From positions 1 to 20,218 of the IMG/VR virus record IMGVR_UViG_3300049783_001672: 20,218 bases of DNA. One strand, 5' to 3'. Source of the stretch: a virus. Positions 7,424 to 20,218 of the stretch are shown here, in pieces; the stretch's first letter is position 1, and each line of letters begins with the position of its first letter. Position numbers and translations under genes: made by a program. The notes beneath the pieces are model-generated. The model saw only the letters and a list, made by a program, of their open reading frames with translations, made no database searches and was not told the origin of the DNA.

Positions 7424-7687
7424 ATGACCAATACCACATCCTACGATCCTGCCCAAATTAAGAAACTTGAAGACTACTTTGCAGCCGGAATTCTGATTGA
7501 AGAAGAGCGAGCTACATTAAATGATGGCCTAAAGGACTTGACTGCGGCTATAGCCGAGGAAATGAATATCAAGCCGGGGCTTCTGTCAAAGGCGCTGAAG
7601 CTTGCAGTAAAAGCATCATTCACCCAGCAAGAAACCGATTTTGAAACTGTTGGAGATATTCTTAGGGCGGTCAAGCGAGACCTTTGA
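7424..7687 (+). CDS. Small helical protein, possibly DsbA-like DNA-binding factor
   Basis: An 87-residue protein with a clear Shine-Dalgarno AAGGA and the strong promoter upstream. It is predicted to be mostly alpha-helical: KKLEDYFAAGI, EERATLNDGLKDLTAAIAEEM, PGLLSKALKLAVKAS, FETVGDILRAVKRD. The overall length and the order of helices (a central DLTAAIAEEMNIKPGLLSKAL stretch, then Phe/Glu-rich text) recall the T4 DsbA double-strand-binding protein family of about 89 residues, but I see no diagnostic motif, so treat that as a suggestion. Its position just before the DNA polymerase supports a nucleic-acid role. Its stop overlaps the next start (TGATG). A 12-bp palindrome, CGGCTATAGCCG, lies at 7545-7556. 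Confidence 0.8.
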   Translation: MTNTTSYDPAQIKKLEDYFAAGILIEEERATLNDGLKDLTAAIAEEMNIKPGLLSKALKLAVKASFTQQETDFETVGDILRAVKRDL

Positions 7688-7917
7688 TGACAGCGAATAC
7701 GTTGCCTCTATGTTACGACAAGCTTGACCGGGAAGTTAGGGTAGGCGATTATGTCGCCTACCCTATCACCGCCAGCATTCTAGGCGTCGGAAAAGTTATT
7801 AAAATAAGTAAAATACAACTTCATATCGAAGTGGCATGGTGTGATGTCAGAAAACGACATGACCAAGTTATTAAGATTGGCGATGCCGACATAATTATGT
7901 ATAAGTTGAAACAATAA
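7687..7917 (+). CDS. Small SH3/KOW-like beta-barrel protein
   Basis: A 76-residue protein. ATG 7687 overlaps the upstream stop; an in-frame TTG one codon earlier is less likely. The stretch VRVGDYVAYP...GVGKVIKISKIQLHIEVAW...HDQVIKI has the alternating hydrophobic pattern and the VGDxVxYP...G.V..I signature of small SH3/KOW/Tudor-type barrels, common in phage accessory proteins and often nucleic-acid or protein binding. The C-terminus ADIIMYKLKQ closely matches the C-terminal end of the repeat-protein family (EQIIMWKLLQ). A perfect 12-bp hairpin lies within the VGDYVAYP codons. It is followed by the AGGAG that serves DNA polymerase. Confidence 0.85.
   Translation: MTANTLPLCYDKLDREVRVGDYVAYPITASILGVGKVIKISKIQLHIEVAWCDVRKRHDQVIKIGDADIIMYKLKQ
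7737..7765 (+). promoter_or_regulatory. Perfect 12-bp intragenic stem-loop
   Basis: TAGGGTAGGCGA (7737-7748), loop TTATG, TCGCCTACCCTA (7754-7765). It lies 50 nt after the ATG of the beta-barrel gene, with no following T-tract, so it is not a standard intrinsic terminator. One of a set of gene-start hairpins in this window with unrelated sequences. Confidence 0.8.
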
Positions 7918-7945
7918 CAGGAGAATCAATATTTACATTGATGCA

Positions 7946-9550
7946 ATGCATGACAAAAATCGAGATATAATTAATATTGTCGAACGTGATGCCAGTGGCA
8001 AACGAGTCTTTCTCGAAAAGAACGCAGAATATGGATTTTACTACGCTGATCCAAAAGGCAAATTCACCAGCATTCACGGCGATAAGCTAAGCAGATTTCA
8101 GACAGACAGCAAGCGATTATTCAACAAAGAAAAAAAGATTCATGGATACAAGAAGATTTTTGAAAGTGATATGAATCTTATCTTCAAGTGTCTTGCTGAT
8201 AATTATAAAGATGCTGATTCTGCTGTATTAAATGTTGGATTTTTCGATATTGAAGTCGAAAAAGTTAAAGATCGCGGATGGGCACCAGTAAGTGATCCTT
8301 TTGCCAGAATAACCGCAATTAGCTTTCATCCAAAATGGCTCAATCAAACTATTTGTTTGGTGGTCGCCCCGGATGAAATGACATTTGAAGAAGCAACAGA
8401 AATATGTGACAGCATTGAAAATTGTTTCCTTATGGATGATGAAGTGCAAATGCTGCATGCATTCATTGAATTGATTGACGATGCGGATATTCTAAGTGGC
8501 TGGAACTCCGAGGGGTTTGATATTCCATATCTTGTCAATAGAATTGCAAGAGTTTTAGGGAAATCGTATCTGCGGAATCTTTGTCTGTGGAATCAGTATC
8601 CGGAACGTCGAATGGTTATGAAATTTGATAAAGAAGAAGAGACATTTGATCTTGTCGGGCGCGTCCATTTGGATTACATGGCTCTATACAAGAAGTATAC
8701 ATACAGTGTAATGCATTCATACAGTCTAGATAGTATTTCTGCACATGAATTGAAATCACAAAAGGTTCCATATGATGGCACTTTAGATCAGTTATACAAC
8801 AACGACTTTAAGAAATTCATTCTATACAGCATTCAAGATACTGCATTGCTTCGCCAATTAGACGATAAATTGCAGTATATTGAACTTGTCAACATGATCG
8901 CACATGCAAACACCGTCAAGATGCAAACTGTCTTGGGATCAGTCGCTCAGATTGATCAGGCGATAGCCAATGAGGCGCATGGGCGGGGCTTGATCGTGCC
9001 TGACAAGCGTAGGGGGCAAATATCTCCGAAGGCTGCTGGCGCGTATGTGGCGCATCCTAAGGTGGGGCTACATGATTGGGCTGCAAGCATCGACCTTAGT
9101 TCCTTGTATCCATCGATCCTCAGAGCATGTAATATGAGTCCGGAAACCATTGTGGCGCAAGTCAGGCAAGATTTAACCGCCGCAATGATTGAATCATTCC
9201 GCACGCCGAGAACAAAAGAAGACAATCATGTCCCCAGAGCATGGGAAGGTAAATTTGCATGCGTTGAATATGATTTGATCATGGCGCAAGACAAAGAAAC
9301 TATCCTGCATCTTGATTATGACGATGGGCGCGTCGAAGAATTGACCGGGGCACAAATCTACCGAATGATATTTGCTGAGAACCGACCATGGATTATGTCT
9401 AGTAATTGCACAATTTTCACCACTGAAAAAGAGGGAGTCGTCCCATCATTACTTTCACGTTGGTATTTTGAGCGACAGGAATTACAGGCAAAAAAAGGAA
9501 AATGGAGTGATTTGGTCGAAGGCATAACTATTCCCGACAGATTATTATGA
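7946..9550 (+). CDS. 43A: DNA polymerase family B, N-terminal fragment (exonuclease plus palm motif A), gp43A-type
   Basis: A 534-residue protein, the first half of the replicative polymerase. Seen: 3'-5' exonuclease motifs Exo I FFDIEV (D101, E103), Exo II WNSEGFDIP (about 187-192) and Exo III YSIQDTALL (about 292-298), then polymerase motif A SIDLSSLYPSIL (about 380-391) with the first catalytic Asp. It ends in the first fingers helix (LLSRWYFERQELQAKK...). Motifs B and C are in the next gene, so both products must associate. This split in the fingers region resembles the split gp43 known from some T4-like phages. The listed start is the first ATG. AGGAG (7919-7923) is 22 nt from it but 7 nt from an in-frame ATT at 7931, so the true product may be five residues longer. 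Confidence 0.95.
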   Translation: MHDKNRDIINIVERDASGKRVFLEKNAEYGFYYADPKGKFTSIHGDKLSRFQTDSKRLFNKEKKIHGYKKIFESDMNLIFKCLADNYKDADSAVLNVGFFDIEVEKVKDRGWAPVSDPFARITAISFHPKWLNQTICLVVAPDEMTFEEATEICDSIENCFLMDDEVQMLHAFIELIDDADILSGWNSEGFDIPYLVNRIARVLGKSYLRNLCLWNQYPERRMVMKFDKEEETFDLVGRVHLDYMALYKKYTYSVMHSYSLDSISAHELKSQKVPYDGTLDQLYNNDFKKFILYSIQDTALLRQLDDKLQYIELVNMIAHANTVKMQTVLGSVAQIDQAIANEAHGRGLIVPDKRRGQISPKAAGAYVAHPKVGLHDWAASIDLSSLYPSILRACNMSPETIVAQVRQDLTAAMIESFRTPRTKEDNHVPRAWEGKFACVEYDLIMAQDKETILHLDYDDGRVEELTGAQIYRMIFAENRPWIMSSNCTIFTTEKEGVVPSLLSRWYFERQELQAKKGKWSDLVEGITIPDRLL

Positions 9551-9567
9551 CATTGAAAGGAATTTAA

Positions 9568-10782
9568 TTGAAGACAGATATTGACTTTGCCAGATTAGAC
9601 CAGATATTTGCGAAAGGAACAAAAGAGGAATTATTGTCTTTTTGTTCAGAAAATGATCTGGAAATAAAAGATGGTAAAATTGTGGCAATTGATCCAGTTG
9701 CGGCAAAAGCAAATGAATCCTTTTGGGACAAACGCCAATTAGTCAGAAAGATTTTGCTCAACAGCTTATATGGCGCTCTATTGAACGCAGGAAGTAGGTT
9801 CTTCGATTTCCGACTTGGCCAGAGTACGACTTTGACTGGACGTGGGATTGATCAGCATATGGCTGCTGGCGTAAATGAAATTATCACTGGCGTCTATCAA
9901 CATGACGGCGCTGCAATCCTGTACTGCGACACAGATTCTTCATATTTCACTGCATACCCAACATATAAGCCCATGATTGACTCGGGCGAAATTAATTGGG
10001 ATGTGGAAACTATCATTACATTATATGACGAAATATGCCGTCAGATCAATGATACTTTTGTCGATCATATGGCAAGGAAGCATCATTGCCCGACAAAAAA
10101 TGGCGCGATTATTAAAGCTGCCAGAGAAGTTGTTGCGGAAAAAACTCTGTTCATCAAAAAGAAAAAATATGCTCTTTTAGTTATTGATGACGGCGGGAAA
10201 CGAAAAGACGTTGGCGGCAAGCGTGGAAAACTGAAGGTAACAGGGCTAGATATTAAACGCAGCGATACTCCTGCATTTGTCCAGAACTTTCTTGAAGAAA
10301 TTGTCATGATGACATTGACTGGTATTTCCAAAGAAGAAATCATCCAACGAATTATCAAATTCAGGACTGAATTTCGAGCAATGCCCTCATGGCACAAGGG
10401 AACTCCAAAACAGGTCAACAACCTAACCAGTAAAACAAAGACATGGCGCAAGACCGGCAAATGTGGAGTCGGACACGTTCTTGCTGCTATCAATTACAAC
10501 GAACTACTGAAACTAAACAACGACACAAACAGTATGCCTATTGTGGACAGTATGAAAACTATTGTTTGTAAACTAAAAGACAATCAGTTTGGGATGACAA
10601 GTATTGGTATCCCCACAGACGAAAGTAGAGTTCCGGACTGGTTCAAGGCATTGCCATTTGATGATAATTTGATGGAAGACACCCTGATCGACAAAAAATT
10701 AGACAATGTTATTGGTTGTCTTGATTGGGATATTAGTTCTTCTAATATAAAAACAACATTTAATGATCTATTCGGCTTTTAG
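9568..10782 (+). CDS. 43B: DNA polymerase family B, C-terminal fragment (fingers, palm motifs B/C, thumb), gp43B-type
   Basis: A 404-residue protein. Motif B is RQLVRKILLNSLYGALLNAG (K61, N65, Y68), motif C is LYCDTDSSY (D121, D123), and a KKKYALL (KxY) element follows, then the thumb. The first ~55 residues are a charged segment (KGTKEELLSFCSENDLEIKDGK) that would sit in the fingers. The C-terminus FNDLFGF resembles the clamp-binding peptide at the end of T4/RB69 gp43, which fits the gp45-type clamp encoded next. Start: TTG 9568 with AAAGGA 6 nt upstream. The 17-nt gap from the first fragment and the change of frame mean it is independently initiated, not a frameshift product. Together the halves (938 residues) are slightly longer than T4 gp43 (898). 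No homing endonuclease or intein motif is present at the break. Confidence 0.95.
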   Translation: MKTDIDFARLDQIFAKGTKEELLSFCSENDLEIKDGKIVAIDPVAAKANESFWDKRQLVRKILLNSLYGALLNAGSRFFDFRLGQSTTLTGRGIDQHMAAGVNEIITGVYQHDGAAILYCDTDSSYFTAYPTYKPMIDSGEINWDVETIITLYDEICRQINDTFVDHMARKHHCPTKNGAIIKAAREVVAEKTLFIKKKKYALLVIDDGGKRKDVGGKRGKLKVTGLDIKRSDTPAFVQNFLEEIVMMTLTGISKEEIIQRIIKFRTEFRAMPSWHKGTPKQVNNLTSKTKTWRKTGKCGVGHVLAAINYNELLKLNNDTNSMPIVDSMKTIVCKLKDNQFGMTSIGIPTDESRVPDWFKALPFDDNLMEDTLIDKKLDNVIGCLDWDISSSNIKTTFNDLFGF

Positions 10783-10785
10783 CCC

Positions 10786-10814
10786 TTGCTATTCCCTCCA
10801 TAATACTATATAAT
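10786..10814 (+). promoter_or_regulatory. Sigma-70-like promoter for the clamp operon
   Basis: TTGCTA (10786-10791), 17-bp spacer, TATAAT (10809-10814), directly after the polymerase stop. A short GGCT-TTT-AGCC hairpin immediately upstream (around 10775-10785) is too weak to be called a terminator. AAGG precedes the clamp ATG at 10839. Confidence 0.65.
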
Positions 10815-10838
10815 TAAACTTATAATAAGGAAACATTA

Positions 10839-11591
10839 ATGGAACCAAAAACAGTATTACTTGACGTTCTCAAGCATACAGCCGGACTAGGCATGATCGA
10901 GGCGATTAAGATCACTGGCACCGACGAATCCACTCAACTTGATGCAATTGATCCAGAAAAAACAATGGTCTTAACTGCAACTCTCCATGAGCCTGTCCCT
11001 GAATTTAAAGGGGAATTTGGATTTGGCAATCTGGGGTATTTGAGTAGTCTCACAAAACTCTCAAATTACAGGGCAGACGATGCAACCGTTTCTGTTATCA
11101 GGCAGAAAATTGAAAACGAAGAAGTGCCAACTTCAATTGTTTTTAAAGACGGAAGCGGGAGTAAAGACCAATATCGTTGTATGTCAGCAGCTATCGTTGA
11201 ACAGGTCTTGAAATTACAAGGCAAGAAGTTCAAGGGCGCAAATTGGAAAATTACAATTGATCCCACCATACAGAAAGTCAATCAGCTTTCAGAAGTCGCC
11301 AGCATTTATTCTGGCATTGAGCCTACATTTTCAGTAACAGTCGAGGATGGCAATCTAGTCTTCGGAGTGGGCAACGCACAAGGGGCGCTGACAGGCAGAC
11401 GAATTTTTGCAACAGATGTCACCGGAAAACTTGACGCGGTATGGAGTTGGAAGCTATCAACCGTGCTGAGCATTTTAAAATTGGGCGTAACTGGAACATG
11501 TGTGATGAAATTCAGCGAAGGGGTTTGTCAGATTGATATCGATTCAGGTATTGCGCTTTACAGCTACATTCTTCCGGCTCTGATGAATTAA
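10839..11591 (+). CDS. 45: DNA polymerase sliding clamp (T4 gp45-like)
   Basis: A 250-residue protein, close in size to T4 gp45 (228). It lacks short catalytic motifs, as expected. The assignment rests on overall pattern: two halves with LTKLSNYRADDATVSVIRQK and VNQLSEVASIYSGIEPTFSVTVEDGNLVFGVGNAQG, then a C-terminal strand-rich segment ending SEGVCQIDIDSGIALYSYILPALMN, comparable to the gp45 C-terminal domain. It follows the polymerase, whose tail looks like a clamp-binding peptide. The trimeric ring encircles DNA and tethers the polymerase; in T4 it also activates late transcription through gp55/gp33. The gp44/gp62 loader genes are not in this window. Its TAA overlaps the next ATG by one base. 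Confidence 0.85.
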   Translation: MEPKTVLLDVLKHTAGLGMIEAIKITGTDESTQLDAIDPEKTMVLTATLHEPVPEFKGEFGFGNLGYLSSLTKLSNYRADDATVSVIRQKIENEEVPTSIVFKDGSGSKDQYRCMSAAIVEQVLKLQGKKFKGANWKITIDPTIQKVNQLSEVASIYSGIEPTFSVTVEDGNLVFGVGNAQGALTGRRIFATDVTGKLDAVWSWKLSTVLSILKLGVTGTCVMKFSEGVCQIDIDSGIALYSYILPALMN

Positions 11592-11806
11592 TGGTCAGAA
11601 AAATTCGAGTGATCGATGACCATCAAAAACCTCCCATGACGGAAAATGAATTCAGATTAAAAATGCTTGAAACGCTTTCTGCAATTGATTGGAAATTATG
11701 GGAACTACTTAAACGTTCAGGATTTGAAGAAAAAACTCTGAGCGCAACAGGAACCCCCTCAACCCAAGATTTTAAATCTATAATTATAGATGAAGATATT
11801 ATCTAA
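11591..11806 (+). CDS. Small hypothetical protein coupled to the clamp gene
   Basis: A 71-residue protein. The ATG overlaps the clamp stop (TAATG), so it is probably translated by termination-reinitiation. A basic N-terminus (MVRKIRVIDDHQK), one amphipathic helix (ENEFRLKMLETLSAIDWKLWELLKRSG), then a disordered linker and an acidic-hydrophobic tail (FKSIIIDEDII). The hydrophobic-acidic C-terminus next to a clamp gene makes a clamp-binding role possible, since T4 gp33 and gp55 bind gp45 by such tails, but the sequence is not recognisably gp33. Function unknown. Confidence 0.75.
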   Translation: MVRKIRVIDDHQKPPMTENEFRLKMLETLSAIDWKLWELLKRSGFEEKTLSATGTPSTQDFKSIIIDEDII

Positions 11807-11839
11807 CTGGCAATCATGCCATCCCAAGGAACTGCAAAC

Positions 11840-12151
11840 ATGAAGACTTCAACTACCTTAGCCGACCTTAAATTCGATCTTCTGAAGATAACAGAACCCT
11901 ATGACGGGCTTCTTGAGGTCACGAATACCCACCCTGTCAGAAAATTATTTGTTTCTTATCTTAGGGACTTGCAGGCGGATAAAATGATCTATGATTTCTC
12001 GATTGACATTGAAAGCAAGACTGACACCATCACATTCAACGTGAATGTCAGATTGCAAAATGGGCGCGCTCCTAAAAAATTACGAATCCACGTCAGGACT
12101 TTTATCGGATCATCGTGGAATCCACGTCGATTGTCCTCCCATCTTCGTTGA
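11840..12151 (+). CDS. Conserved-looking phage hypothetical protein
   Basis: A 103-residue protein from ATG 11840 (AAGGA 9 nt upstream). An in-frame ATG at 11816 has no ribosome binding site and would add eight residues. Composition: helix-rich N-terminal half (LADLKFDLLKITEPYDGLLEV...RKLFVSYLRDLQADK), then a two-strand pattern (IYDFSIDIES, TITFNVNVRLQNGRAPKKLRIHV) and a basic tail (WNPRRLSSHLR). I do not recognise the family. Its 3' end carries the first of three operator-like elements (12139-12149) and a direct repeat GAATCCACGTC (about 12084 and 12117). Confidence 0.75.
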   Translation: MKTSTTLADLKFDLLKITEPYDGLLEVTNTHPVRKLFVSYLRDLQADKMIYDFSIDIESKTDTITFNVNVRLQNGRAPKKLRIHVRTFIGSSWNPRRLSSHLR

Positions 12152-12209
12152 TTTCAATTGACGCCAATGAACGAAGATGGTATGATAGAAAAATCACCAT
12201 CTTCGTTCA
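12139..12209 (+). promoter_or_regulatory. Promoter flanked by three inverted/direct operator-like elements
   Basis: Promoter: TTGACG (12158-12163), 17-bp spacer, TATGAT (12181-12186). Element A CCATCTTCGTT (12139-12149) is upstream of the -35. Element B, its reverse complement within TGAACGAAGATGGT (12168-12181), fills the spacer and touches the -10. Element C ACCATCTTCGTTCA (12196-12209) lies at the expected transcription start. B and C form a perfect 14-bp inverted repeat with a 14-nt gap; A and B form an alternative 11-bp one. Three copies in alternating orientation around one promoter look like repressor operators. Alternatively B/C could fold as a cruciform. AAGGA follows at 12213. Confidence 0.75.
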
Positions 12210-12223
12210 ATCAAGGATATATC

Positions 12224-12592
12224 ATGACGCTCTCCCCCACTCCGCTAAAAACCAATTCCAAAGAATTTTGGCAAAATATTGTATTCATCACCGGAAAACC
12301 TATCTCTCGCGAGCAATATGGTTTTGGCGTATCAGTCATTCTGGCAATTGGAACCGTTCTTGTTGCCGCCGCGCCAAGCGTTACATTTGCCACGATTATT
12401 CATATTATGATGATTGTTGGTATAGTGAATATCGCTGAACTGCGCGCCATTGTTCTCAAGATCAACAGACTATGGGCATGGACAATTATAATCGGCTCAA
12501 TGTATCCTGTCGTTGCCGTCATTCCTTTGCTTTTCTTTTGCTTGGCGCGTCGTGCATCTGATGGAAAAATCACCCTTCTAAACAGGAAATAA
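12224..12592 (+). CDS. Small integral membrane protein
   Basis: A 122-residue protein from ATG 12224, which has AAGGA 6 nt upstream. An in-frame TTG at 12158 overlaps the promoter -35 and is not a credible start. Three hydrophobic segments: GFGVSVILAIGTVLVAAA, TFATIIHIMMIVGIVNI and WTIIIGSMYPVVAVIPLLFF, with basic ends (RRASDGK...NRK), consistent with an inner-membrane protein. The FITGKPISREQY start and INRLW...PLLFFCL text loosely recall DUF805-type inner membrane proteins; a holin or superinfection-exclusion role is equally possible. It is the only gene here under the three-element promoter, then reads into peptide deformylase. Confidence 0.75.
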   Translation: MTLSPTPLKTNSKEFWQNIVFITGKPISREQYGFGVSVILAIGTVLVAAAPSVTFATIIHIMMIVGIVNIAELRAIVLKINRLWAWTIIIGSMYPVVAVIPLLFFCLARRASDGKITLLNRK

Positions 12593-12595
12593 TTT

Positions 12596-13120
12596 ATGAA
12601 TACTTATGATTTGTCATCCCACCAATTGGTTATTACTCCAAATCCAATTCTGGAATACCCAACTAGCCAATTCAAAAACGGCGTTCAGTCATATCGCGAC
12701 GCATTATTCAACCATATGTGCCATGTGATGACATCAAACCACGGCGTCGGTCTTTCTGCCAATCAAATCGGGCTGGATGCGTCACTGTTTATTATGATCT
12801 TGGATGGAAAAGCGACTATGATAATTAATCCAATCATTACTAAAATAAGCGACGAAACTGCATCATTGACAGAAGGTTGTTTGAGTGATCCGGGGTTGCG
12901 CATCGCCGTCAAACGACCAACGTCCATCGAAGTCCGATTTGAGGATATAAACGGGTATATGTCTGAGGGCAAAATGGACGGCATAACCGCCAGAATTTTC
13001 CTTCATGAATTTGATCATCTCAATGGAATTATGATTTCTGATCGGACCAGTAAATTAAGATTGACAATGGCTAAAAAGAAACGTGATAAAAAAAGGAGAC
13101 TAAATGAGTCTATGGAATAA
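12596..13120 (+). CDS. def: Peptide deformylase
   Basis: A 174-residue protein, normal length for the family. All three active-site motifs are present: GVGLSANQIG (50-59; motif I GxGLAAxQ with Ala replaced by Ser), EGCLS (93-97, metal ligand C95) and HEFDHLNG (137-144; metal ligands H137 and H141, catalytic E138). The enzyme removes the formyl group from nascent N-terminal Met at the ribosome. Phage-encoded deformylases are known from marine T4-like cyanophages and other phages, usually as short versions; this one has only a short basic tail (KKKRDKKRRLNESME). AGGAAA lies upstream of the ATG. Its 3' end overlaps the next gene by 17 nt. Confidence 0.95.
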   Translation: MNTYDLSSHQLVITPNPILEYPTSQFKNGVQSYRDALFNHMCHVMTSNHGVGLSANQIGLDASLFIMILDGKATMIINPIITKISDETASLTEGCLSDPGLRIAVKRPTSIEVRFEDINGYMSEGKMDGITARIFLHEFDHLNGIMISDRTSKLRLTMAKKKRDKKRRLNESME

Positions 13121-13391
13121 GCTATTTGGTTCGGCGGCGGCGGATCGCCCAGAAACCAACAGAGAAAACCTTACGAAAAAAGAGGCAACTGATTTAAAAC
13201 AGCCATGGGTTAATGTAACTAAATTCAACGTCATTGACAGTAAAGACCCATCTAACATTGAAATTGAGTTGGACTGGAATATCTTTTTTATTGACGAATT
13301 AAAGTCAGCAGGATATAACGGTAAAGAAGAAGAAGATATCATCGAGCAATGGTTTCATGATCTTTGTCGCGGGATTGTTGATGACATATGA
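13104..13391 (+). CDS. Conserved T4-like small protein of unknown function
   Basis: A 95-residue protein with a strong AAAGGAG 4-9 nt upstream. The N-terminal MSLWNKLFGS amphipathic start and a charged linker are followed by PWVNVTKF...IEIELDWNIFFIDELKSAGYNG and EDIIEQWFHDLCRGIVDD. The pattern (PWVxV...ELDWN..F...L...GY.G..ED.I..QWF..L) is one I associate with small proteins near replication genes in T4-like cyanophages, from memory only. Acidic C-terminal half; possibly a protein-interaction module. The stop overlaps the RNase H start (ATGA), so the two are translationally coupled. Confidence 0.8.
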   Translation: MSLWNKLFGSAAADRPETNRENLTKKEATDLKQPWVNVTKFNVIDSKDPSNIEIELDWNIFFIDELKSAGYNGKEEEDIIEQWFHDLCRGIVDDI

Positions 13392-14380
13392 AGTATGTAA
13401 TTATTGACGCGACGCATCTTTACTTCCGGGCGAAGCATGTTGTTCGGGGCGACGATATTGACATGAAGATTGGTATGGCAATGCAGATCATGTTTTCCAG
13501 TATCAATAAGGTCTGGCGTGATTTTGGAGCCGACCATCTTGTGTGTTGCTTTGAAGGCGGATCGTGGAGAAAAGATTTCTATGGACCATACAAGAGAAAT
13601 CGGGCTGAACGAACAGCAGGAATGAGCATGCGGGAATTAGAGGAAGACAAGCAATTTCTGGCATCTTTCAATGATTTTCGAGATTTTCTAAGTTCCCGGT
13701 CGAATGCCACTGTATTGGCTGCGCCCGGCGCAGAAGCCGATGACTGCATTGCCCGATGGATTCAGACGCATTCAGAGGATGAACATGTCATCATCAGTGC
13801 AGATTCTGATTTTTACCAATTACTAACTCCCAACGTAACTCAATACAATGGCATAACACAAGAGCATATTACTCTTGATGGAATTTATGACGCGAAGGGA
13901 TCATTGGTTATTGACAAGAAAACCAAAGCGCCAAAATCTATTGGCGATCCTGAATGGCTTCTTTTTGAAAAGTGTATTCGCGGGGATAAGGCAGATAATA
14001 TTTTTTCTGCTTATCCCGGAGCCAGAAAAAAAGGAACCAAAAATAAAACAGGGATGCAAGAGGCGTTTGATGACCGAAACAAACAAGGATATCACTGGAA
14101 TAACCTTATGTTGGTTCGGTGGATTGACATTAATAATGAAGAGCATGTTGTCAGAAACGATTATATCAGAAATAAAAAATTAATTGACCTGACAGAACAG
14201 CCGGAAAATGTATTGCAGTCTATTGATATGGTTATAAATAATGCTATAACAGCAGATAAAGTTTCTCAGTGCGGGCTTCATTTCTTGCGATTTTGTGGAA
14301 AATATAATCTTGTGCGCCTTGGTGAGCAATGCGCTGATCATTCCAAATATTTATCTGCTGCATATACAAGGGACAAATAA
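13388..14380 (+). CDS. rnh: RNase H / 5'-3' exonuclease of the FEN-1 family (T4 rnh-like)
   Basis: A 330-residue protein; T4 RNase H is 305. Seen: N-terminal VIIDATHLYFRA (metal-binding D7), CFEGGSWRKDFYGPYKRNR (the conserved basic segment after the second Asp/Glu), EADDCIARW (paired acidic residues in the first metal site), SADSDFYQLL (second metal site) and a helix-3-turn-helix-like GDKADNIFSAYPGARKKGTKN that binds duplex DNA. It removes lagging-strand RNA primers plus adjacent DNA. It is transcribed with the deformylase block and coupled to the preceding small gene. The C-terminal 100 residues lack known motifs and, by analogy with T4, would contact the single-strand-binding protein. Confidence 0.93.
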   Translation: MKYVIIDATHLYFRAKHVVRGDDIDMKIGMAMQIMFSSINKVWRDFGADHLVCCFEGGSWRKDFYGPYKRNRAERTAGMSMRELEEDKQFLASFNDFRDFLSSRSNATVLAAPGAEADDCIARWIQTHSEDEHVIISADSDFYQLLTPNVTQYNGITQEHITLDGIYDAKGSLVIDKKTKAPKSIGDPEWLLFEKCIRGDKADNIFSAYPGARKKGTKNKTGMQEAFDDRNKQGYHWNNLMLVRWIDINNEEHVVRNDYIRNKKLIDLTEQPENVLQSIDMVINNAITADKVSQCGLHFLRFCGKYNLVRLGEQCADHSKYLSAAYTRDK

Positions 14381-14842
14381 ATGATGGAACTTCACTGCAT
14401 TTTGCCGAATAAATATTGGATTGTCAAGGATTCAGGCAAACCAATAGGATCGCTTCGTGCTGCAACATCTGAGAATTATGATTTCTATCAATCATCTTCT
14501 GGTATCACCACGCAAGTAAATGTCGAGTATATCGCAGAATTTTTTACGCACATGGACCAGATTGATGATCCCGAAGTAAACATGAGTATCAATGGTTTTA
14601 TCACAAATTCCCCCGCGCCGTGCCTTATTGACATCAGGCACGATAATACTATATACAAAAAATCTTTGAACGCAAACCAACCATATCATGTTGCTGGATA
14701 TTTTGCAATCAAATATCCGAGCCAGTGGGGGATTTTACGAAGTCCAAGATTGGCAACCATTCTAAATAACGAATGTATTGGACCATTCAGGAAAGAATCT
14801 GATGCTAAAATTGCAATCTCTAACAGACGTAATTCCAGATAA
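14381..14842 (+). CDS. Hypothetical protein
   Basis: A 153-residue protein beginning immediately after the RNase H stop; AAGGGA lies about 8 nt upstream. Beta-rich text (KYWIVKDSGKPIGSLRAATSENYDFY; CLIDIRHDNTIYKKSL; YHVAGYFAIKYPSQWGILRSPRLATIL) with an alternating polar/hydrophobic pattern. No signal peptide, membrane helix or catalytic motif recognised. A 7-bp inverted repeat (CGTGCCT...AGGCACG) occurs mid-gene at about 14619-14642. Its last 41 nt overlap the next gene, which is read in another frame. Function unknown. Confidence 0.8.
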   Translation: MMELHCILPNKYWIVKDSGKPIGSLRAATSENYDFYQSSSGITTQVNVEYIAEFFTHMDQIDDPEVNMSINGFITNSPAPCLIDIRHDNTIYKKSLNANQPYHVAGYFAIKYPSQWGILRSPRLATILNNECIGPFRKESDAKIAISNRRNSR

Positions 14843-15269
14843 TCTTTCATATGATGATTTCAGAGAGGCGCTGACTCAGTATCTCACGTCTCCTGAAATC
14901 ATTGACTATTTGCTGAAATTAGAAACAATTATTTGCATGTCATACAAAACTACATCATATCGCAATGATTCTTTGTGGGACACCATACAAAACAAAAAAT
15001 TAAAAATATTCACCAAAAATAAGTCATATGTTCTGACATCACAATCCGCGCACGTCATGAAAGAATTATTCTATCATGAAACATTATCTCTGGAAAAACA
15101 AATCACATCTGGAGAATTGATTTTGCTTGGGCGCGCGAAATCACCATATATCATTCAGCCTGCAAATTTTATAATTCACCATCCAGAAATTGTTTTGTTC
15201 AATCCTGAACATATTATAATGAGCAAAATGTTGGACAGCCCGCATGAGTGGATTGCGACATTATCCTGA
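14802..15269 (+). CDS. Hypothetical protein with IIMxK-type C-terminal segment
   Basis: A 155-residue protein from ATG 14802, with AGGAAAG about 8 nt upstream; an in-frame TTG at 14778 lacks a site. N-terminal helices (DNLSYDDFREALTQYL; PEIIDYLLKLETII) are followed by a strand-rich region (SLEKQITSGELILLGRAKSPYIIQPANFIIHHPEIVLF). NPEHIIMSKM near the end resembles the C-terminal E..IIM.KL of the repeat proteins and several other small genes here, but another dozen residues follow. Not recognised. Confidence 0.8.
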   Translation: MLKLQSLTDVIPDNLSYDDFREALTQYLTSPEIIDYLLKLETIICMSYKTTSYRNDSLWDTIQNKKLKIFTKNKSYVLTSQSAHVMKELFYHETLSLEKQITSGELILLGRAKSPYIIQPANFIIHHPEIVLFNPEHIIMSKMLDSPHEWIATLS

Positions 15270-15277
15270 TTATCTGA

Positions 15278-15306
15278 TTGACACCCGCTATAATCCATGT
15301 TAAACT
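15278..15306 (+). promoter_or_regulatory. Sigma-70-like promoter
   Basis: TTGACA (15278-15283), 17-bp spacer, TAAACT (15301-15306), in the 63-bp gap before the 53-residue gene at 15333. A TATAAT at 15289-15294 lies inside the spacer but has no -35 at the right distance. ATAATCC (15290-15296) is the reverse complement of GGATTAT at the Shine-Dalgarno (15321-15327). Confidence 0.65.
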
Positions 15307-15332
15307 GATATTCTAGCAAAGGATTATGATAA

Positions 15333-15494
15333 ATGAACAATTTCCTAACCGCCGAAACTGTGACCGTCGATGCCGCCACACTTGAGCGAGCAAAGGATTG
15401 GTATGCCACATTTACTAATGGCCAATGTGGCAATATTCCAGACGATTTTGAAATTGTTGCTATTTTTGACATGGTTCGAAAAACATCAAAATAA
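15333..15494 (+). CDS. Small 53-residue protein
   Basis: A short complete frame, MNNFLTAETVTVDAATLERA... to ...IFDMVRKTSK, with AAAGGA 9 nt upstream of the ATG and its own promoter. It fills the otherwise empty stretch between the gene ending at 15269 and the MoxR promoter, which supports its reality. The text is a single helix-forming domain (VDAATLERAKDWYATF), a short loop (NGQCGNIPDD) and a second helix (FEIVAIFDMVRK). A 9-bp inverted repeat, TGCCACATT...AATGTGGCA (15404-15432), lies within the coding region. Function unknown. Confidence 0.75.
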   Translation: MNNFLTAETVTVDAATLERAKDWYATFTNGQCGNIPDDFEIVAIFDMVRKTSK

Positions 15495-15508
15495 CAACAA
15501 ATAATTGC

Positions 15509-15537
15509 TTGCCTTGTATCATACAGTATGATATGCT
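15509..15537 (+). promoter_or_regulatory. MoxR-gene promoter containing a 17-bp operator-like dyad
   Basis: TTGCCT (15509-15514), 17-bp spacer, TATGCT (15532-15537). The spacer holds a perfect dyad TATCATAC-A-GTATGATA (15517-15533) with 8-bp half-sites around a single central base, a geometry typical of helix-turn-helix repressor operators. The ten bases ATGATATGCT at the -10 are shared with the promoter at 3206. Confidence 0.7.
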
Positions 15538-15575
15538 ATGATCACCATAACCTTAACCCACAAGTAGGACAATTA

Positions 15576-16721
15576 ATGTCAACTAATCTAGTCGATCACT
15601 CAGTCACAACGCTACAGCTTTCTCGTTACCTAGAGACCCATATCCGGCTGAAACAGCCCGTAATGCTACATGGCGGACCCGGCATTGGGAAATCATCTGT
15701 GGTTGCGCAGATCATTGACCGCTGGAAAGCCAATGGTAAGACCGCTCATATGGTTGATGTGCGTCTTTCGCAGATGGACCCAACCGACCTTCGCGGAATT
15801 CCCTTTCTCGACAATACTGGCAAAACAAACAAGATGGCATGGGCACCTCCCGTTTCAATGCCTTCTGAAGAAATGGCAAAAGAATTTGATTTGGTCGTTC
15901 TTTTCCTTGATGAAATCAATGGGGCAACTCCATCTGTTCAGGCGGCGGCATATCAGCTAATTCTTGATCGGGCAGTTGGTGAATACAAGCTTCCTGACAA
16001 TGTTGCCGTGATCGCAGCAGGCAATCGTGCAAGCGATCAGGGCGTCACCTTTAAAATGCCTGCACCGCTTCGGAACCGATTTATCCATTATGAACTACGG
16101 CATGACTTCGACGCATGGTACGAATGGGCCAGCGACAATGATATTAACGCCGATGTTCTTGGTTATCTTATTTCCTCTAAGATTTCTCTGTATAATTTCA
16201 GCAGCAAAACGAAAGATGCCGCGTTTGCAACACCCCGATCATGGGCTGTCCTTGCACATCTTCTTGATAATGCAACTGGTATTCCCTCATCAGACCTAAA
16301 CAATATGGCAACTGGTATTATTGGCGCAGCGCAGGCAATTCCGTTTATGGCATTCCGTAAGAATTCCAAGAATTTGCCCAATCCAACTGACATTATGACA
16401 GGAAAAGTCACTAAACTCAACACGCAGGAGATTAGCGCGCTATATTCACTTACGATTAGTCTGGTGTATGAATTGAAAACATATAATTCAGCAATTGCGA
16501 CGGACTCCACCAAAAACAAAGAAACTCTTGACAAATACATGAACACTATCATTGAGTTTCTGATGGACAACTTCGAAACTGAAATGGCTGTTATGGGAAT
16601 GCGTCTGATTGTTCGAAAGTCATTGACTGCAAAGAACAATCTGCCCAACGTAAACCGTTCACTATCCGGTTGGAAACGGTTTATCTCATCCGAAACCGGC
16701 AAACTTATGATGGAACTATGA
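15576..16721 (+). CDS. MoxR-type AAA+ ATPase
   Basis: A 381-residue protein from ATG 15576 with AGGA 7 nt upstream; an in-frame ATG at 15528 lies in the -10 region. Walker A GGPGIGKS (33-40), Walker B LVVLFLDEIN (D112, E113), sensor-1 Asn in VIAAGNRASD (N150), and an arginine-finger region APLRNRF (R166, R168). The DLRGIP and insertions match the MoxR/CbbQ branch, which forms hexamers and, with a partner von Willebrand factor A protein, remodels or activates target proteins. The expected VWA partner is three genes on at 17378, separated by two small genes and a second promoter. The C-terminal ~130 residues are helical without recognised motifs. Confidence 0.92.
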   Translation: MSTNLVDHSVTTLQLSRYLETHIRLKQPVMLHGGPGIGKSSVVAQIIDRWKANGKTAHMVDVRLSQMDPTDLRGIPFLDNTGKTNKMAWAPPVSMPSEEMAKEFDLVVLFLDEINGATPSVQAAAYQLILDRAVGEYKLPDNVAVIAAGNRASDQGVTFKMPAPLRNRFIHYELRHDFDAWYEWASDNDINADVLGYLISSKISLYNFSSKTKDAAFATPRSWAVLAHLLDNATGIPSSDLNNMATGIIGAAQAIPFMAFRKNSKNLPNPTDIMTGKVTKLNTQEISALYSLTISLVYELKTYNSAIATDSTKNKETLDKYMNTIIEFLMDNFETEMAVMGMRLIVRKSLTAKNNLPNVNRSLSGWKRFISSETGKLMMEL

Positions 16722-17065
16722 CCGAGAAAAAGGTAAAGGGGAGAATCATTTCCCCTTTACCTACCGCCTTGCCTGTTTCTAATTTGGCAAGGCGGGCATT
16801 ATACCAACAGAAATACCCCGAATCACAACAAGTTATTGATGACCTTATTGGACTACATCCAACAATTACTGATATAATCAACTGGAAGGGTTCATGGCTT
16901 CCATTTACGAAATTCGTGGTATCTGTGCCAAATACTGACACCAACGCTCCAATTCTAAGAAAAGCAATCCATCCATATATGATTGAGGTAAATAGAGGGC
17001 GAGAAAATTCCGAATATAAATTTTATAATCAGGATGATTTTTTTATGTTCAAGTTATCACAATGA
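16718..17065 (+). CDS. Small hypothetical protein with FFMFKLSQ tail and two start-proximal hairpins
   Basis: A 115-residue protein from the ATG that overlaps the MoxR stop (ATGA). The basic N-terminus MTEKKVKGRIISPLP is encoded by a perfect 12-bp stem-loop and the next residues (TALPVSNLARR) by a 10-bp one. The C-terminal half (GSWLPFTKFVVSVPNTDTNAP...EVNRGR...YKFYNQ) is beta-rich, ending DDFFMFKLSQ, a version of the recurrent IIMxKLxQ tail. Layout resembles the following gene (W..F.V...PI/P...Y..EV...FKL), so the two may be distant paralogues. Function unknown; lying between the MoxR and VWA genes, it might be an adaptor or substrate. Confidence 0.8.
   Translation: MTEKKVKGRIISPLPTALPVSNLARRALYQQKYPESQQVIDDLIGLHPTITDIINWKGSWLPFTKFVVSVPNTDTNAPILRKAIHPYMIEVNRGRENSEYKFYNQDDFFMFKLSQ
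16731..16795 (+). promoter_or_regulatory. Two adjacent perfect intragenic stem-loops
   Basis: Hairpin 1: AGGTAAAGGGGA (16731-16742), 8-nt loop, TCCCCTTTACCT (16751-16762), 12 bp. One base later, hairpin 2: CCGCCTTGCC (16764-16773), 12-nt loop, GGCAAGGCGG (16786-16795), 10 bp. They start 13 nt after the ATG of the gene at 16718. Neither is followed by a T-tract. Confidence 0.85.
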
Positions 17066-17325
17066 ATTCTGCGAATTTACAAAAACAGGCGCTGCGAACA
17101 ATATTTGGATCGTCGCTCGTTGCCCCATCGACCGTATCGGCATGGAAGCTCTCATGGTTTAGAACTGGATTTATCGTTTCGATTAGTTCATTCAATAGGT
17201 GTGTTCAGGTATTTAGAGACAATGACATCCCGCCAATATATTATCAACTTTCAGTGATTGATCAACGACCAGTTTGCATATTGTTCCTTGAAGAACATGC
17301 CATATTGCTAAAGTTAAGTCATTGA
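17062..17325 (+). CDS. Small hypothetical protein with AILLKLSH tail
   Basis: An 87-residue protein, with the ATG overlapping the previous stop (ATGA). The N-terminal helix (NLQKQALRTIFGSSLV) is followed by beta-type text (SWFRTGFIVSISSFNRCVQVFRDNDIPPIYYQLSVIDQRPVCILFLEEHAILLKLSH). The tail EEHAILLKLSH matches the recurrent E..[IA]I..KL pattern of the repeat proteins and neighbours. Its stop codon lies inside the -35 of the VWA gene promoter, so gene end and promoter are superposed. Function unknown. Confidence 0.8.
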   Translation: MNSANLQKQALRTIFGSSLVAPSTVSAWKLSWFRTGFIVSISSFNRCVQVFRDNDIPPIYYQLSVIDQRPVCILFLEEHAILLKLSH

Positions 17326-17350
17326 CTTAATTACCAATTCATGTTATAAT
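17314..17350 (+). promoter_or_regulatory. VWA-gene promoter with 17-bp dyad over the -35
   Basis: TTGACT (17322-17327), 17-bp spacer, TATAAT (17345-17350): near consensus. A perfect dyad TTAAGTCA-T-TGACTTAA (17314-17330), again 8+1+8 but a different sequence from the MoxR dyad, covers the -35 and the end of the previous gene. GAGGA precedes the ATG at 17378. Confidence 0.8.
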
Positions 17351-17377
17351 CAATCATCATCATCTTATGAGGAATAA

Positions 17378-18679
17378 ATGAAACTTCCAGAAAATATCAC
17401 GCAGGCGCAATCTGACGAAAATGTCAAAGCTGCCCGTTATAAACTTGCCATGGCACGATCACGCCTTCTATTTGCACACCCATTTTTTGGGCAAATTGCA
17501 ATGCAGTTGCCTCTTGTGGCGCGGCGGGGAAAGTGTTCTACTGCGGCGACAGACGGACGATCCTTCTTCTTCAATCCAGAATTCGTTATGAATTTGGATG
17601 ACAAGGAACTTGTATTTCTTGTAATTCATGAATTAGGTCATTGCATCTATCAACATATGATCCGTCGAAGTAATCGAGACCCGAAGCTATATAATATTGC
17701 ATGTGATTATGTCATTAATAACATGATTGAAAATGATGTTATTAATGTATCAAGTTGCCATGCGGGCAAGGCGGGATCAACGTATTGTCGAATTGTTACA
17801 TTTATAAAGCCATATTTGGATCACAAATATGATGGAATGTCATCAGAACAAGTCTATGAGTTGCTGAAAAAAGAACAAGATGCCGGTGGGAAGCCCGAAG
17901 ATAAAGGCGAACTTCTTGACTGGCACCCTGATATGAATGGCGATGACCAATCAGACTCTGATGGTGAAGATGATGGCGAAACAGACGCCAGAGGTCAAGT
18001 AATTGGCGTGATGTCTAACGATGATCGCGATGATCTTACGCAGGAAATTCGTGCTCATATTATCAGTGCTGCATCGGCTGGCGGCGCTCCTGCTGACATT
18101 CAGCGTTTGATTGCCGATCTTATTGAACCAACGATTGACTGGACTGATATTATCTCGGCAACCATTGAAAGCAAATATACCGCTGATTATTCATTCATGC
18201 GAACAAGTCGCAAAGGCGCTCATCTACAGGCAATTCTTCCCGGTCAAGTCCCGGAAGAAGCAATCAATGTCTTTTTGGCAATCGATACCTCTGGATCAGT
18301 TAGCGAAGACATGCTTCGTGAATTTCTTTCTGAAATCAGTGGAATGATGGCGCAGTATAACAACTATATTATTAGAATCTGTCAGTTCGACACCAGCGTT
18401 TATGGTTATGCAGAATACACCCAAGATTCCGGTGAAGATATTGCTGATTATCCGTTGCGCGGTGGGGGCGGCACTAAGTTTATGGTAATTTGGGATTACA
18501 TGAAAAAGCACAGTATTGAGCCTGATCAACTTATCGTATTCACTGATGGAATGCCAAATCCTTCTACTGCATGGGGTGATCCGGACTATTGTGATACCAC
18601 CTTCCTAATCCATACACAGTATGGACGTGCTGTTGCGCCATATGGTGAATCAGTTTATTATAATGGCGGAAACGCATGA
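17378..18679 (+). CDS. Putative metallopeptidase-like domain plus von Willebrand factor A domain protein
   Basis: A 433-residue protein. N-terminal domain with a zincin-type HELGH (H84-E85-L86-G87-H88) and downstream YNIACDYVINNMI, as in the predicted metallopeptidase domain of the DUF2201 family. An acidic linker (about 182-205, DGDD/SDSDGEDDGETD) leads to a C-terminal VWA-like domain with the MIDAS motif FLAIDTSGSVSEDML (about 298-312) and VFTDGMPNPS (about 386-395). Such proteins pair with MoxR AAA+ ATPases, encoded upstream here, and are thought to link ATP-driven remodelling to metal-dependent binding or proteolysis. Own strong promoter with an operator-like dyad. The final stop overlaps the next start (ATGA). 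Whether the peptidase is active cannot be judged from sequence. Confidence 0.9.
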   Translation: MKLPENITQAQSDENVKAARYKLAMARSRLLFAHPFFGQIAMQLPLVARRGKCSTAATDGRSFFFNPEFVMNLDDKELVFLVIHELGHCIYQHMIRRSNRDPKLYNIACDYVINNMIENDVINVSSCHAGKAGSTYCRIVTFIKPYLDHKYDGMSSEQVYELLKKEQDAGGKPEDKGELLDWHPDMNGDDQSDSDGEDDGETDARGQVIGVMSNDDRDDLTQEIRAHIISAASAGGAPADIQRLIADLIEPTIDWTDIISATIESKYTADYSFMRTSRKGAHLQAILPGQVPEEAINVFLAIDTSGSVSEDMLREFLSEISGMMAQYNNYIIRICQFDTSVYGYAEYTQDSGEDIADYPLRGGGGTKFMVIWDYMKKHSIEPDQLIVFTDGMPNPSTAWGDPDYCDTTFLIHTQYGRAVAPYGESVYYNGGNA

Positions 18680-18966
18680 TCCGTGTGTTTCGTCGCAAAA
18701 CACTGAGCATGGATGAATTTGAAACCATGCTCAGTGACAGCACCAAAGAAAAAATGGCGCGCAATATTGTTTCTATTGCATATCAGAACACAGATATTGT
18801 CGCTATGATATCTGCCCTTGATCTGGATAACAGCAAGGGATTAGTATGCGAACTGATTGCGAAAGACAAGGACATGTATATTGAACATATATATTTTGAG
18901 TTAGGGGAAGACATGGAGCGATGTATTGAACTGATAACGTTGTATAAACTTTCACTAGATGGATGA
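18676..18966 (+). CDS. Small hypothetical protein with start-proximal hairpin
   Basis: A 96-residue protein, with the ATG overlapping the VWA stop. Begins MIRVFRRKTLSMDEFETML; residues TLSMDEFETMLSD are encoded by a perfect 12-bp stem-loop (18701-18736). The rest is helical and acidic (KEKMARNIVSIAYQNTDIVAMIS...LGEDMERCIELITLYKLSLDG). The end LITLYKLSLDG is a weak match to the recurrent IIMxKL tail. Overlaps the next gene by 8 nt. Not recognised. Confidence 0.8.
   Translation: MIRVFRRKTLSMDEFETMLSDSTKEKMARNIVSIAYQNTDIVAMISALDLDNSKGLVCELIAKDKDMYIEHIYFELGEDMERCIELITLYKLSLDG
18701..18736 (+). promoter_or_regulatory. Perfect 12-bp intragenic stem-loop
   Basis: CACTGAGCATGG (18701-18712), 12-nt loop, CCATGCTCAGTG (18725-18736), 25 nt after the ATG of the gene at 18676. 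No T-tract follows. Sequence unrelated to the other hairpins. Confidence 0.85.
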
Positions 18967-19135
18967 TCCTCTGCTAAATATTAGCGACTTGCAAGAAGTA
19001 TTGAATATCTTGCAAGTCGCAATCAAACGCGGCGCGTTTGAGCCAACTGAATTAGCAGCAGTTGGGACGATATATACTATCATTAAAAAATTCGTAGACC
19101 AACACGAAATTAGTGACGAAACAAAAAAGGAATAA
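18959..19135 (+). CDS. Small conserved-looking helical protein (58 residues)
   Basis: ATG 18959 overlaps the end of the preceding gene and the frame runs to TAA 19133-19135. It fills an otherwise empty 180-bp stretch. Two helices: NISDLQEVLNILQVAIKRGAFEP and ELAAVGTIYTIIKKFVDQ, with a polar tail. The pattern (DLQ..LN....A..RGAF...EL..VG..Y....KF) is one I associate with tiny proteins in T4-like marine phages, from memory. DLQEVLNILQVA is encoded by a perfect 13-bp stem-loop. Function unknown. Confidence 0.75.
   Translation: MDDPLLNISDLQEVLNILQVAIKRGAFEPTELAAVGTIYTIIKKFVDQHEISDETKKE
18984..19020 (+). promoter_or_regulatory. Perfect 13-bp intragenic stem-loop
   Basis: GCGACTTGCAAGA (18984-18996), 11-nt loop, TCTTGCAAGTCGC (19008-19020), 25 nt after the ATG of the 58-residue gene. 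No T-tract follows. Confidence 0.85.
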
Positions 19136-19143
19136 ATTAATAT

Positions 19144-19800
19144 ATGCTACATATAGGCAAAATCAAAGCAACAGGTCGTAAATGTGTTGTTGTATTTCGT
19201 GAAATACCCGACGCTAAAGGCAAAACTATAGATGAAAATCATTGTTTAGTGGTTGAAACTGAACGATTGCCCGACGCCGAACACGAAATGGTCATTAATC
19301 TGGTTAACGGCAGGAGCGCACAATCATCCCCAAATATCTATGACTTGTTTTCCCGAACGGCGATGAACAATGGCGCATCTCTGTTGACTTGGCTGCATAA
19401 ATCCGGCAGACTACAGAAAACAGCGACCTCTGACGTTATCATGACGCCCGGAGCGCGGGGCGAAGGCGAAATTCCTCTGAATGATCTAAATACTATCATA
19501 CGCATGCAGTCTATTGGAAAATCAGACGCGCAGATTAAAGATGCGTTGGGGGCAAAGAATGCCTCCCCTTCACCTACGCCTATTCCGGCTGCGATGGAAG
19601 TAGTTGGGGATTCTGTTATTGATGCGCCGACTACCGATTCCGTTCTGTCTGATCTAGATATTGGCAAATTGAAACTTGCCCAAGCCACGACATTCGAGAC
19701 TCAGGCAGCAGAATTGCGCAAAGAAGCATATAAATTGGATTCCTCATTGAAGCCTGTCCCTCGCGCCAGAAAAAAGGCGGTAGCAAAAGTAAAAGAGTAA
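19144..19800 (+). CDS. Conserved T4-like phage protein of unknown function
   Basis: A 218-residue protein. Domain 1 (1-75) starts MLHIGKIKATGRKCVVVFREIPD...CLVVETERLPDAEHEMVINLVN, a beta-strand-rich start. A helical segment (IYDLFSRTAMNNGASLLTWLHKSGRLQKT) is followed by VIMTPGARGEGEIPLNDLNTIIR, a Pro-rich linker (SPSPTPIPAA) and a helical basic tail (ETQAAELRKEAYKL...RARKKAVAKVKE) that could contact nucleic acid. I associate the ICxxRP-like text (KATGxxxVVVFREIP...LPDxxHE) with T4-like phage proteins of unknown role, from memory. A short palindrome, GTATTTC-GT-GAAATAC (19192-19207), lies 48 nt into the gene. AAGG is 13 nt from the ATG, longer than usual. Confidence 0.8.
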   Translation: MLHIGKIKATGRKCVVVFREIPDAKGKTIDENHCLVVETERLPDAEHEMVINLVNGRSAQSSPNIYDLFSRTAMNNGASLLTWLHKSGRLQKTATSDVIMTPGARGEGEIPLNDLNTIIRMQSIGKSDAQIKDALGAKNASPSPTPIPAAMEVVGDSVIDAPTTDSVLSDLDIGKLKLAQATTFETQAAELRKEAYKLDSSLKPVPRARKKAVAKVKE

Positions 19801-19803
19801 ATC

Positions 19804-20106
19804 ATGGCAATAACTGAACGCTCACGCGGATTTCGATCTCTGATAGACAATATGGATAAGAATCCACATAATGTTCCGTTGCGATTTCTAAAAGATATTA
19901 TTTTTTACATGGATTCTGGAGAAGCAATTCTTTGTCCCAGAGATGAATTTTCGGATTGTCCTCCGGATACCAGCATTCTCGGAGTAATAACCAGTCATCC
20001 TCTTGTAGAGCGCAATGCATGTAAGGCATTTAAATGCAGACTTGATTACAAGACAATGGAAAATGAAATTACTTCAACATTAGAGGAATTATTCTCCGGT
20101 AAATGA
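19804..20106 (+). CDS. Hypothetical protein
   Basis: A 100-residue protein starting 3 nt after the previous stop. Helical, basic first half (ERSRGFRSLIDNMDKNPHNVPLRFLKDIIFYMDSG) with several Cys later (ILCPRDEFSDCPP; NACKAFKCRLD) that do not form an obvious zinc motif. Acidic C-terminal helix (YKTMENEITSTLEELFSG). The stop overlaps the dihydrofolate reductase start (ATGA). Not recognised. Confidence 0.75.
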   Translation: MAITERSRGFRSLIDNMDKNPHNVPLRFLKDIIFYMDSGEAILCPRDEFSDCPPDTSILGVITSHPLVERNACKAFKCRLDYKTMENEITSTLEELFSGK

Positions 20107-20218
20107 CAATAAATGCAATTCTTGCGTGCGATACTGAGGGCGGTATCGCACGCAAGGGAATAATGCCTTGGCCCAAAAACAAAGTAGATTTGCGTTTCTT
20201 TTCGCAAATTACCAGAAA
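20103..20218 (+). CDS. folA: Dihydrofolate reductase, 3' part cut by the window edge
   Basis: Only the first 38 codons are present. MTINAILACDTEGGIARKGIMPWPKNKVDLRFFSQIT matches the N-terminus of DHFR: the AILACD strand, the GGIxxxGxMPW loop (Met20-loop region, usually GGIGKxGxLPW) and DLRFFxxIT leading to the first helix. The enzyme reduces dihydrofolate with NADPH and, in T4-like phages (gene frd), supports thymidylate synthesis, so a thymidylate synthase may lie further downstream. Gly-Lys of the loop is replaced by Ala-Arg. A strong perfect hairpin covers codons 7-18. The start overlaps the upstream stop. Confidence 0.9.
   Translation, partial: MTINAILACDTEGGIARKGIMPWPKNKVDLRFFSQITR
20121..20156 (+). 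promoter_or_regulatory. Perfect 14-bp intragenic stem-loop in DHFR
   Basis: CTTGCGTGCGATAC (20121-20134), loop TGAGGGCG, GTATCGCACGCAAG (20143-20156): a GC-rich stem beginning 18 nt after the DHFR start codon. No T-tract follows. The encoded residues are the normal DHFR loop, so the stem is created by codon choice rather than an insertion. Confidence 0.9.

Follow-up and report, generated by a model that had tools for sequence, protein, structure and literature searches.

Hairpins past gene ends as candidate transcript-end signals inside overlapping genes of a large-phage fragment

In Escherichia coli operons with differential decay, 26 of 34 stabilized upstream genes end at hairpins that lack a U-tract; 17 of these 26 protective hairpins lie within the downstream coding sequence (107 nt in on average), and they are conserved and sometimes occur several to an operon (PMC5927463). 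A related case is the E-hairpin inside galT, which defines the galE 3′ end and forms after Rho termination when galT initiation fails (PMC9239205). Here we describe six perfect 12–14 bp stems (H1 to H6) in a 20,218-base fragment of a large tailed phage, the whole of IMG/VR record IMGVR_UViG_3300049783_001672 (positions 1 to 20,218; hereafter the window). On balance we think it probable, from their sequence and placement, that these stems act as RNA hairpins, defining where the message of the upstream gene ends and shielding that 3′ end.

Like the E. coli protective hairpins (PMC5927463), the window stems are predicted to be stable hairpins past an upstream gene without a U-tract, and five of the six lie within a gene, as the E. 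coli hairpins usually lie in the downstream coding sequence. They differ in starting only 13–50 nt in, in pairing perfectly over 12–14 bp, in their density (six per 12.4 kb of phage) and in the amino-acid-changing covariation seen in phage relatives. By features, the phage stems, known from sequence, are candidate members of the decay-hairpin class. The galE E-hairpin is likewise U-less and sits near the beginning of the next gene, where it blocks exonucleases, but it lies ~100–130 nt past the stop and is Rho-dependent (PMC9239205). Related large phages (PA5oct, 121Q and others) have intrinsic terminators of similar stem strength at the same gene ends (ATPase and VWA); those terminators are intergenic and mostly T-tailed, whereas the window stems lack a T-tract and H3 and H4 lie inside coding sequence. 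Translational coupling likewise involves overlapping stop/start junctions with adjacent structure (reviewed in PMC12548453), but classical coupling structures cover the ribosome-binding site and the window stems start 13–50 nt downstream of the start. A literature search, with most subscription journals outside its coverage, found no description of embedded protective hairpins in phages.

Perfect stems and gene ends in the window

The window encodes a split family-B DNA polymerase, a peptide deformylase, a 5′-3′ exonuclease, an AAA-ATPase, a DUF2201/VWA protein and the start of a DHFR gene; megablast against a phage collection returned no near-identical known phage. A scan for perfect stems of at least 10 bp with loops of 3–15 nt reproduced all six stems reported in a first-pass annotation of this DNA, together with the 10-bp companion that it had placed after H3 (H3b).

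H1, 7737–7765, + strand: perfect 12-bp stem with a 5-nt loop, codons 17–26 of the gene at ATG 7687
H2, 12168–12209, + strand: perfect 14-bp intergenic stem with a 14-nt loop
AAA-ATPase gene, 15576–16721, + strand: upstream of H3, start set at ATG 15576 after the Shine-Dalgarno sequence AGGA
H3, 16731–16762, + strand: perfect 12-bp stem with an 8-nt loop, codons 5–14 of the gene at ATG 16718
H3b, 16764–16795, + strand: perfect 10-bp stem (80% GC) with a 12-nt loop, directly 3′ of H3 in the same gene
DUF2201/VWA-like gene, 17378–18679, + strand: upstream of H4
H4, 18701–18736, + strand: perfect 12-bp stem with a 12-nt loop, codons 9–20 of the gene at ATG 18676
H5, 18984–19020, + strand: perfect 13-bp stem with an 11-nt loop, codons 9–20 of the gene at ATG 18959
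H6, 20121–20156, + strand: perfect 14-bp stem with an 8-nt loop, codons 7–17 of the DHFR gene at ATG 20103 (assigned from a phrog_316 match)

In all, the scan returned 8 perfect stems of 10 bp or more from the window, 7 of them at least 12 bp long, and the corresponding control means are 0.49 and 0.03 for codon-shuffled sequence and 0.43 and 0.04 for dinucleotide controls. The excess is real and far beyond chance, as the first-pass annotation had held. For no in-gene stem did more than one of 4000 synonymous recodings reach the observed length (1/4000 for H1; 0/4000 for H3, H3b and H6). The in-gene stems are GC-rich, as the hairpin of an intrinsic terminator is, with a folding free energy (ΔG) of about −20 to −27 kcal/mol. 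The 8 nt 3′ of the stem on the sense strand contain 0–2 T at the six main stems and 3 at H3b, so the absence of a T-tract reported earlier stands for all six, and none has the full form of a classical intrinsic terminator.

A scan of the window against Rfam gave no match above the gathering score, and no match to a known RNA family or tRNA was found in the window. The stem sequences are unrelated, which rules out a dispersed element, in agreement with the first-pass annotation, and the six share no loop sequence either. This lack of a common sequence or loop argues against sites for an RNase III-type processing endonuclease or a phage RNA-binding protein, for which strong stems of 12–14 bp would also be short in the case of RNase III. 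In its favour are the location of strong stems at the borders between genes of an operon, and the intergenic processing hairpins that phage T7 is known to have; even so, we regard this explanation as very unlikely.

Five of the stems (H1, H3, H4, H5 and H6) lie in coding sequences that open at an overlapping stop/start (ATG 7687, 16718, 18676, 18959 and 20103), and they begin 13–50 nt past the A of the start codon. The first-pass annotation had described the stems as sitting beside starts, a link that is only partly right, the upstream stop being at least as good an anchor. All seven GC-rich window stems (at least 10 bp, GC at least 40%) start 10–50 nt past an upstream stop, as do ~10% of random positions. 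The apparent link to starts results from the short stop/start overlaps, of 1–8 nt, that precede the five in-gene stems: 1 nt between the H1 host gene and the stop of gene 7424–7687, 4 nt at H3 (10 nt past the ATPase stop), 4 nt at H4 (22 nt past the VWA stop), 8 nt between the H5 gene and its upstream gene, and 4 nt at H6. The intergenic H2 starts 17 nt past the stop of gene 11816–12151, ahead of ATG 12224.

Since the window by itself cannot separate the influence of starts from that of stops, we turned to relatives, with simple gene calls made for this analysis. Among 29 GC-rich perfect stems pooled from six other phage contigs, 19 lie within ~55 nt past a stop. Stop-only stems number 12 and start-only stems 2, the random rates being ~2% and 8–10%. 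This stop-side placement indicates that GC-rich stems mark gene ends. At starts the relatives show no more than a modest genome-wide excess, limited to the strongest hairpins, with 12 of these (ΔG ≤ −16) in codons 5–32 versus 3 in codons 41–68 across 824 genes.

The earlier annotation had allowed that stems elsewhere might have been missed. The scan found one more perfect 12-bp stem, in the VWA gene body (17713–17747); it is AT-rich (17% GC) and not near a gene boundary. The inverted repeat at this position has 16-nt arms that are 94% complementary.

Only one contig (L002) is close to the window, with 15 single-nucleotide polymorphisms (SNPs) over 10.9 kb. H1 to H3 are free of SNPs and the contig stops short of H4, so this polymorphism is uninformative on the stems. 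Thirteen of the 15 SNPs fall in or near two small genes 3′ of the ATPase (window 16842–17226).

Hairpins after the ATPase and VWA genes in relatives

The site of H3 can be followed in 49 distinct ATPase 3′ ends, one of them the window's near-copy and the others from relatives of mostly 40–50% protein identity. A hairpin of ΔG ≤ −10 is found at 44 of the 49 ends. As this threshold is permissive (random background 20–29%; 20% of random 90-nt pieces), we also report ΔG ≤ −14, which is reached by 39 of the 49 ends and by 3.3% of random pieces. A further clade gives 52 of 56 distinct ends at ΔG ≤ −10. The hairpin is found past the ATPase stop both where another gene starts at this point and where none does.

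The form of the ATPase-end hairpin varies with the room available. Where there is an intergenic gap the hairpins are mostly T-tailed terminators, and in ten relatives with an overlapping next gene the hairpin sits inside that gene without a T-tract (median T count in the 8 nt past the stem 2 in-gene vs 5 intergenic, P = 5e-6). These ten are encoded by the codons E-G-E...D/N-L-S (GGGAGAG...CTCTCCC), and each is stronger than 1000 of 1000 recodings. Several intergenic terminators have a −35-like TTGAC within their loop, with TATAAT after the T-tract, and the in-gene loop often keeps a TTGA(C) remnant. Because of this remnant and the likeness of in-gene and intergenic stems, the sequences suggest that the ATPase-end terminator was absorbed into coding sequence in the ten relatives. 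Hairpins past both the ATPase and the VWA gene, mostly T-tailed, are found in PA5oct, 121Q, GAP32, Phosso and Vibrio 2.275.O; SCTP-2 has one past VWA.

Two further arrangements were observed at this gene end. Terminator-promoter composites past the ATPase stop, with a −35-like TTGACT in the loop and TATAAT ~17 nt on, occur in five relatives (L016, L036, L042, L059 and L066). Six (L016, L017, L018, L058, L059 and L066) have a second upstream stem whose left arm holds the ATPase stop codon, e.g. AACGCATAA...TGCGTT, and whose letters differ between relatives.

The gene after VWA, which carries H4 in the window, has recognisable relatives in many phages. In viral scans the window genes 17378 and 10839 matched almost only the near-identical contig, and we therefore used the relatives' proteins as queries. 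In 58 distinct homologs of the VWA-next gene from one clade, a hairpin forms around an R-R-x-x-F-x-P-P motif and beats synonymous recodings at P ≤ 0.01 in 43, compared with 2.6% for control windows in the same genes. At three facing codon pairs, exact reverse complements occur with a frequency that none of 5000 shuffles reached (pair 1: GTA/TAC, GTG/CAC, ATG/CAT, ATA/TAT; pair 2: AGG/CCT, AGA/TCT, CGC/GCG, CGG/CCG, CGT/ACG; pair 3: AGG/CCT, CGG/CCG, AGA/TCT). The facing codons change together and alter the protein, the partner residue being P, S, A or T (R..P to R..S, R..A or R..T). On a tree from the rest of the gene we count 29 double compensations; over 200 shuffles of the arms the mean is 11.7 and the highest count 21. 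This covariation is the strongest evidence that an in-gene, start-proximal stem is kept as a structure, and it bears out at one site at least the covariation for which the first-pass annotation had proposed to look. H4 itself and the hairpin of one relative (L006) lie at the corresponding place with unrelated letters. In L192 the VWA-next-gene homolog has moved away from VWA, and its subgroup has a different stem.

Concerted changes of this kind could also arise without selection, through template-switch perfection of palindromes. If the replication machinery had made the stems at the DNA level, by quasipalindrome correction and without any function, perfect arms and concerted facing-codon changes could both follow, and the AT-rich stem in the VWA gene body, with no boundary nearby, would fit. 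Such correction leaves unexplained the post-stop placement of all GC-rich stems and the coding-strand T-tails at the same gene ends in relatives. We hold this explanation, which the first-pass annotation had listed, to be extremely unlikely, as it does not account for where the stems are.

The stems might instead be genuine terminators or attenuators that halt RNA polymerase even though their U-tract is weak or absent, NusA/NusG or a phage factor being possible helpers. The gene end shared with T-tailed intrinsic terminators in relatives speaks for this, as does the short T-run (CATTTT or CTTT) close 3′ of the stem in the VWA-site clade; all six window stems lack a T-tract, and we consider this account quite unlikely. 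Among the functions that the first-pass annotation had proposed, RNA processing or transcript ends fit best, and the lack of T-tracts weakens the case for premature intrinsic termination of the classical type.

A role mainly in tuning downstream translation is possible, if unlikely. The hairpins would then hinder or gate reinitiation at overlaps with a poor or absent Shine-Dalgarno sequence and so yield less of the second protein. By eye, no Shine-Dalgarno sequence is obvious at four of the five in-gene junctions and the fifth is weak, and most stand-alone window genes have one. The junction of g18676 and g18959 overlaps in the window and carries a hairpin (H5); in 58 relatives it is spaced, with an AAGGAG-type leader before the next gene, and has none. 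Structure just past an upstream stop correlates negatively with coupling (PMC12548453), and at the VWA site the hairpin goes with a motif in the protein encoded next. Against this, the ATPase-3′ hairpin stays as a T-tailed terminator where no gene starts, and at relatives' overlapping junctions without a Shine-Dalgarno sequence in-gene hairpins number 12 of 160, equal to the control.

Several results weigh against reading the stems as 3′-end hairpins of upstream messages. In-gene start-proximal hairpins are not generally enriched in relatives at P ≤ 0.01 with ΔG ≤ −10, and at these thresholds we reject the idea that overlapping junctions in relatives have in-gene hairpins as a rule, only the strongest showing the modest start excess. 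Several VWA relatives with a different next gene have no hairpin there; the VWA-site hairpin may for this reason belong to the next gene and not to the upstream gene end. Of 89 distinct homologs of the H5 gene, 88 lack a counterpart of the stem, and no H5-like hairpin follows the matching upstream gene in 58 relatives; both homolog sets reject H5 as a conserved feature of its own gene or of the upstream gene's end. H1, H2 and H6 have too few homologs to bear on the question, the H1 host gene having none among the loci examined. Conservation, a trait of the protective hairpins, thus appears at H3 and H4 by position and structure and does not extend to H5.

H2 and neighbouring genes

Two further elements overlap or adjoin H2.

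H2 third arm CCATCTTCGTT, 12139–12149, + strand: end of gene 11816–12151, touching its stop codon
Promoter-like TTGACG-17-TATGAT, 12158–12186, + strand: sigma70-like, from a consensus scan only, overlapping the H2 left arm

The CCATCTTCGTT arm is a copy of the H2 right arm and can pair alternatively with the H2 left arm over 11 bp, so that 12134–12209 can form two mutually exclusive hairpins (folds of −17.2 and −22.1 kcal/mol). This three-arm arrangement could be a translation-sensitive switch, because the first arm would lie under any ribosome that has reached the stop codon.

Elsewhere in the window, 3685–7357 holds nine tandem paralogous genes of a ~24-residue repeat (WYLNGELHRIDGPAVEYANG-like) with overlapping, mostly GTG starts and a weak DUF6745 match. 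The family-B DNA polymerase is split over two adjacent genes (7946–10782), and the same split is seen in L009, L125, L127 and probably L126.

A proposed role for the stems

If the stems act as protected 3′ ends of upstream messages, the working form would be RNA. With an overlapping next gene and no intergenic room, the hairpin would be encoded in-frame in the first codons of that gene, at about the distance where a ribosome bound at the start codon no longer covers the RNA. In this position it would block 3′→5′ exonucleases after cleavage, pausing or Rho termination, at times when the poorly initiating downstream gene stays untranslated. An exonuclease block is the probable mode, because an in-gene hairpin cannot carry a full U-tract. 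The expected outcome would be more upstream than downstream product from one transcript, and in this way an effect on gene dosage. The same hairpin may act twice, first through fewer restarts and then as a protected end, because structure past a stop correlates with lower translational coupling. H1, H2, H5 and H6 would act in the same way as H3 and H4.

A more speculative extension, which we think rather improbable, is that large phages have a distinct form of punctuation in which terminator-like hairpins are absorbed into overlapping genes. Ribosome restart would then decide whether the hairpin forms and where the transcript ends, setting gene dosage inside the coding sequence, with amino acids partly chosen to keep the stem.

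One hairpin, that of the VWA-next gene, is by the evidence of its homologs kept through paired base changes even where the protein changes; here, concretely, the structure of the nucleic acid restricts which protein a phage gene encodes. The case also points to a way in which compact phage genomes may retain transcript ends without intergenic space, ends that terminator finders requiring a T-tract or intergenic space would overlook. H1 to H6, together with the VWA-next-gene hairpin in dozens of relatives, are testable sites at which unequal amounts of protein may be made from one transcript.

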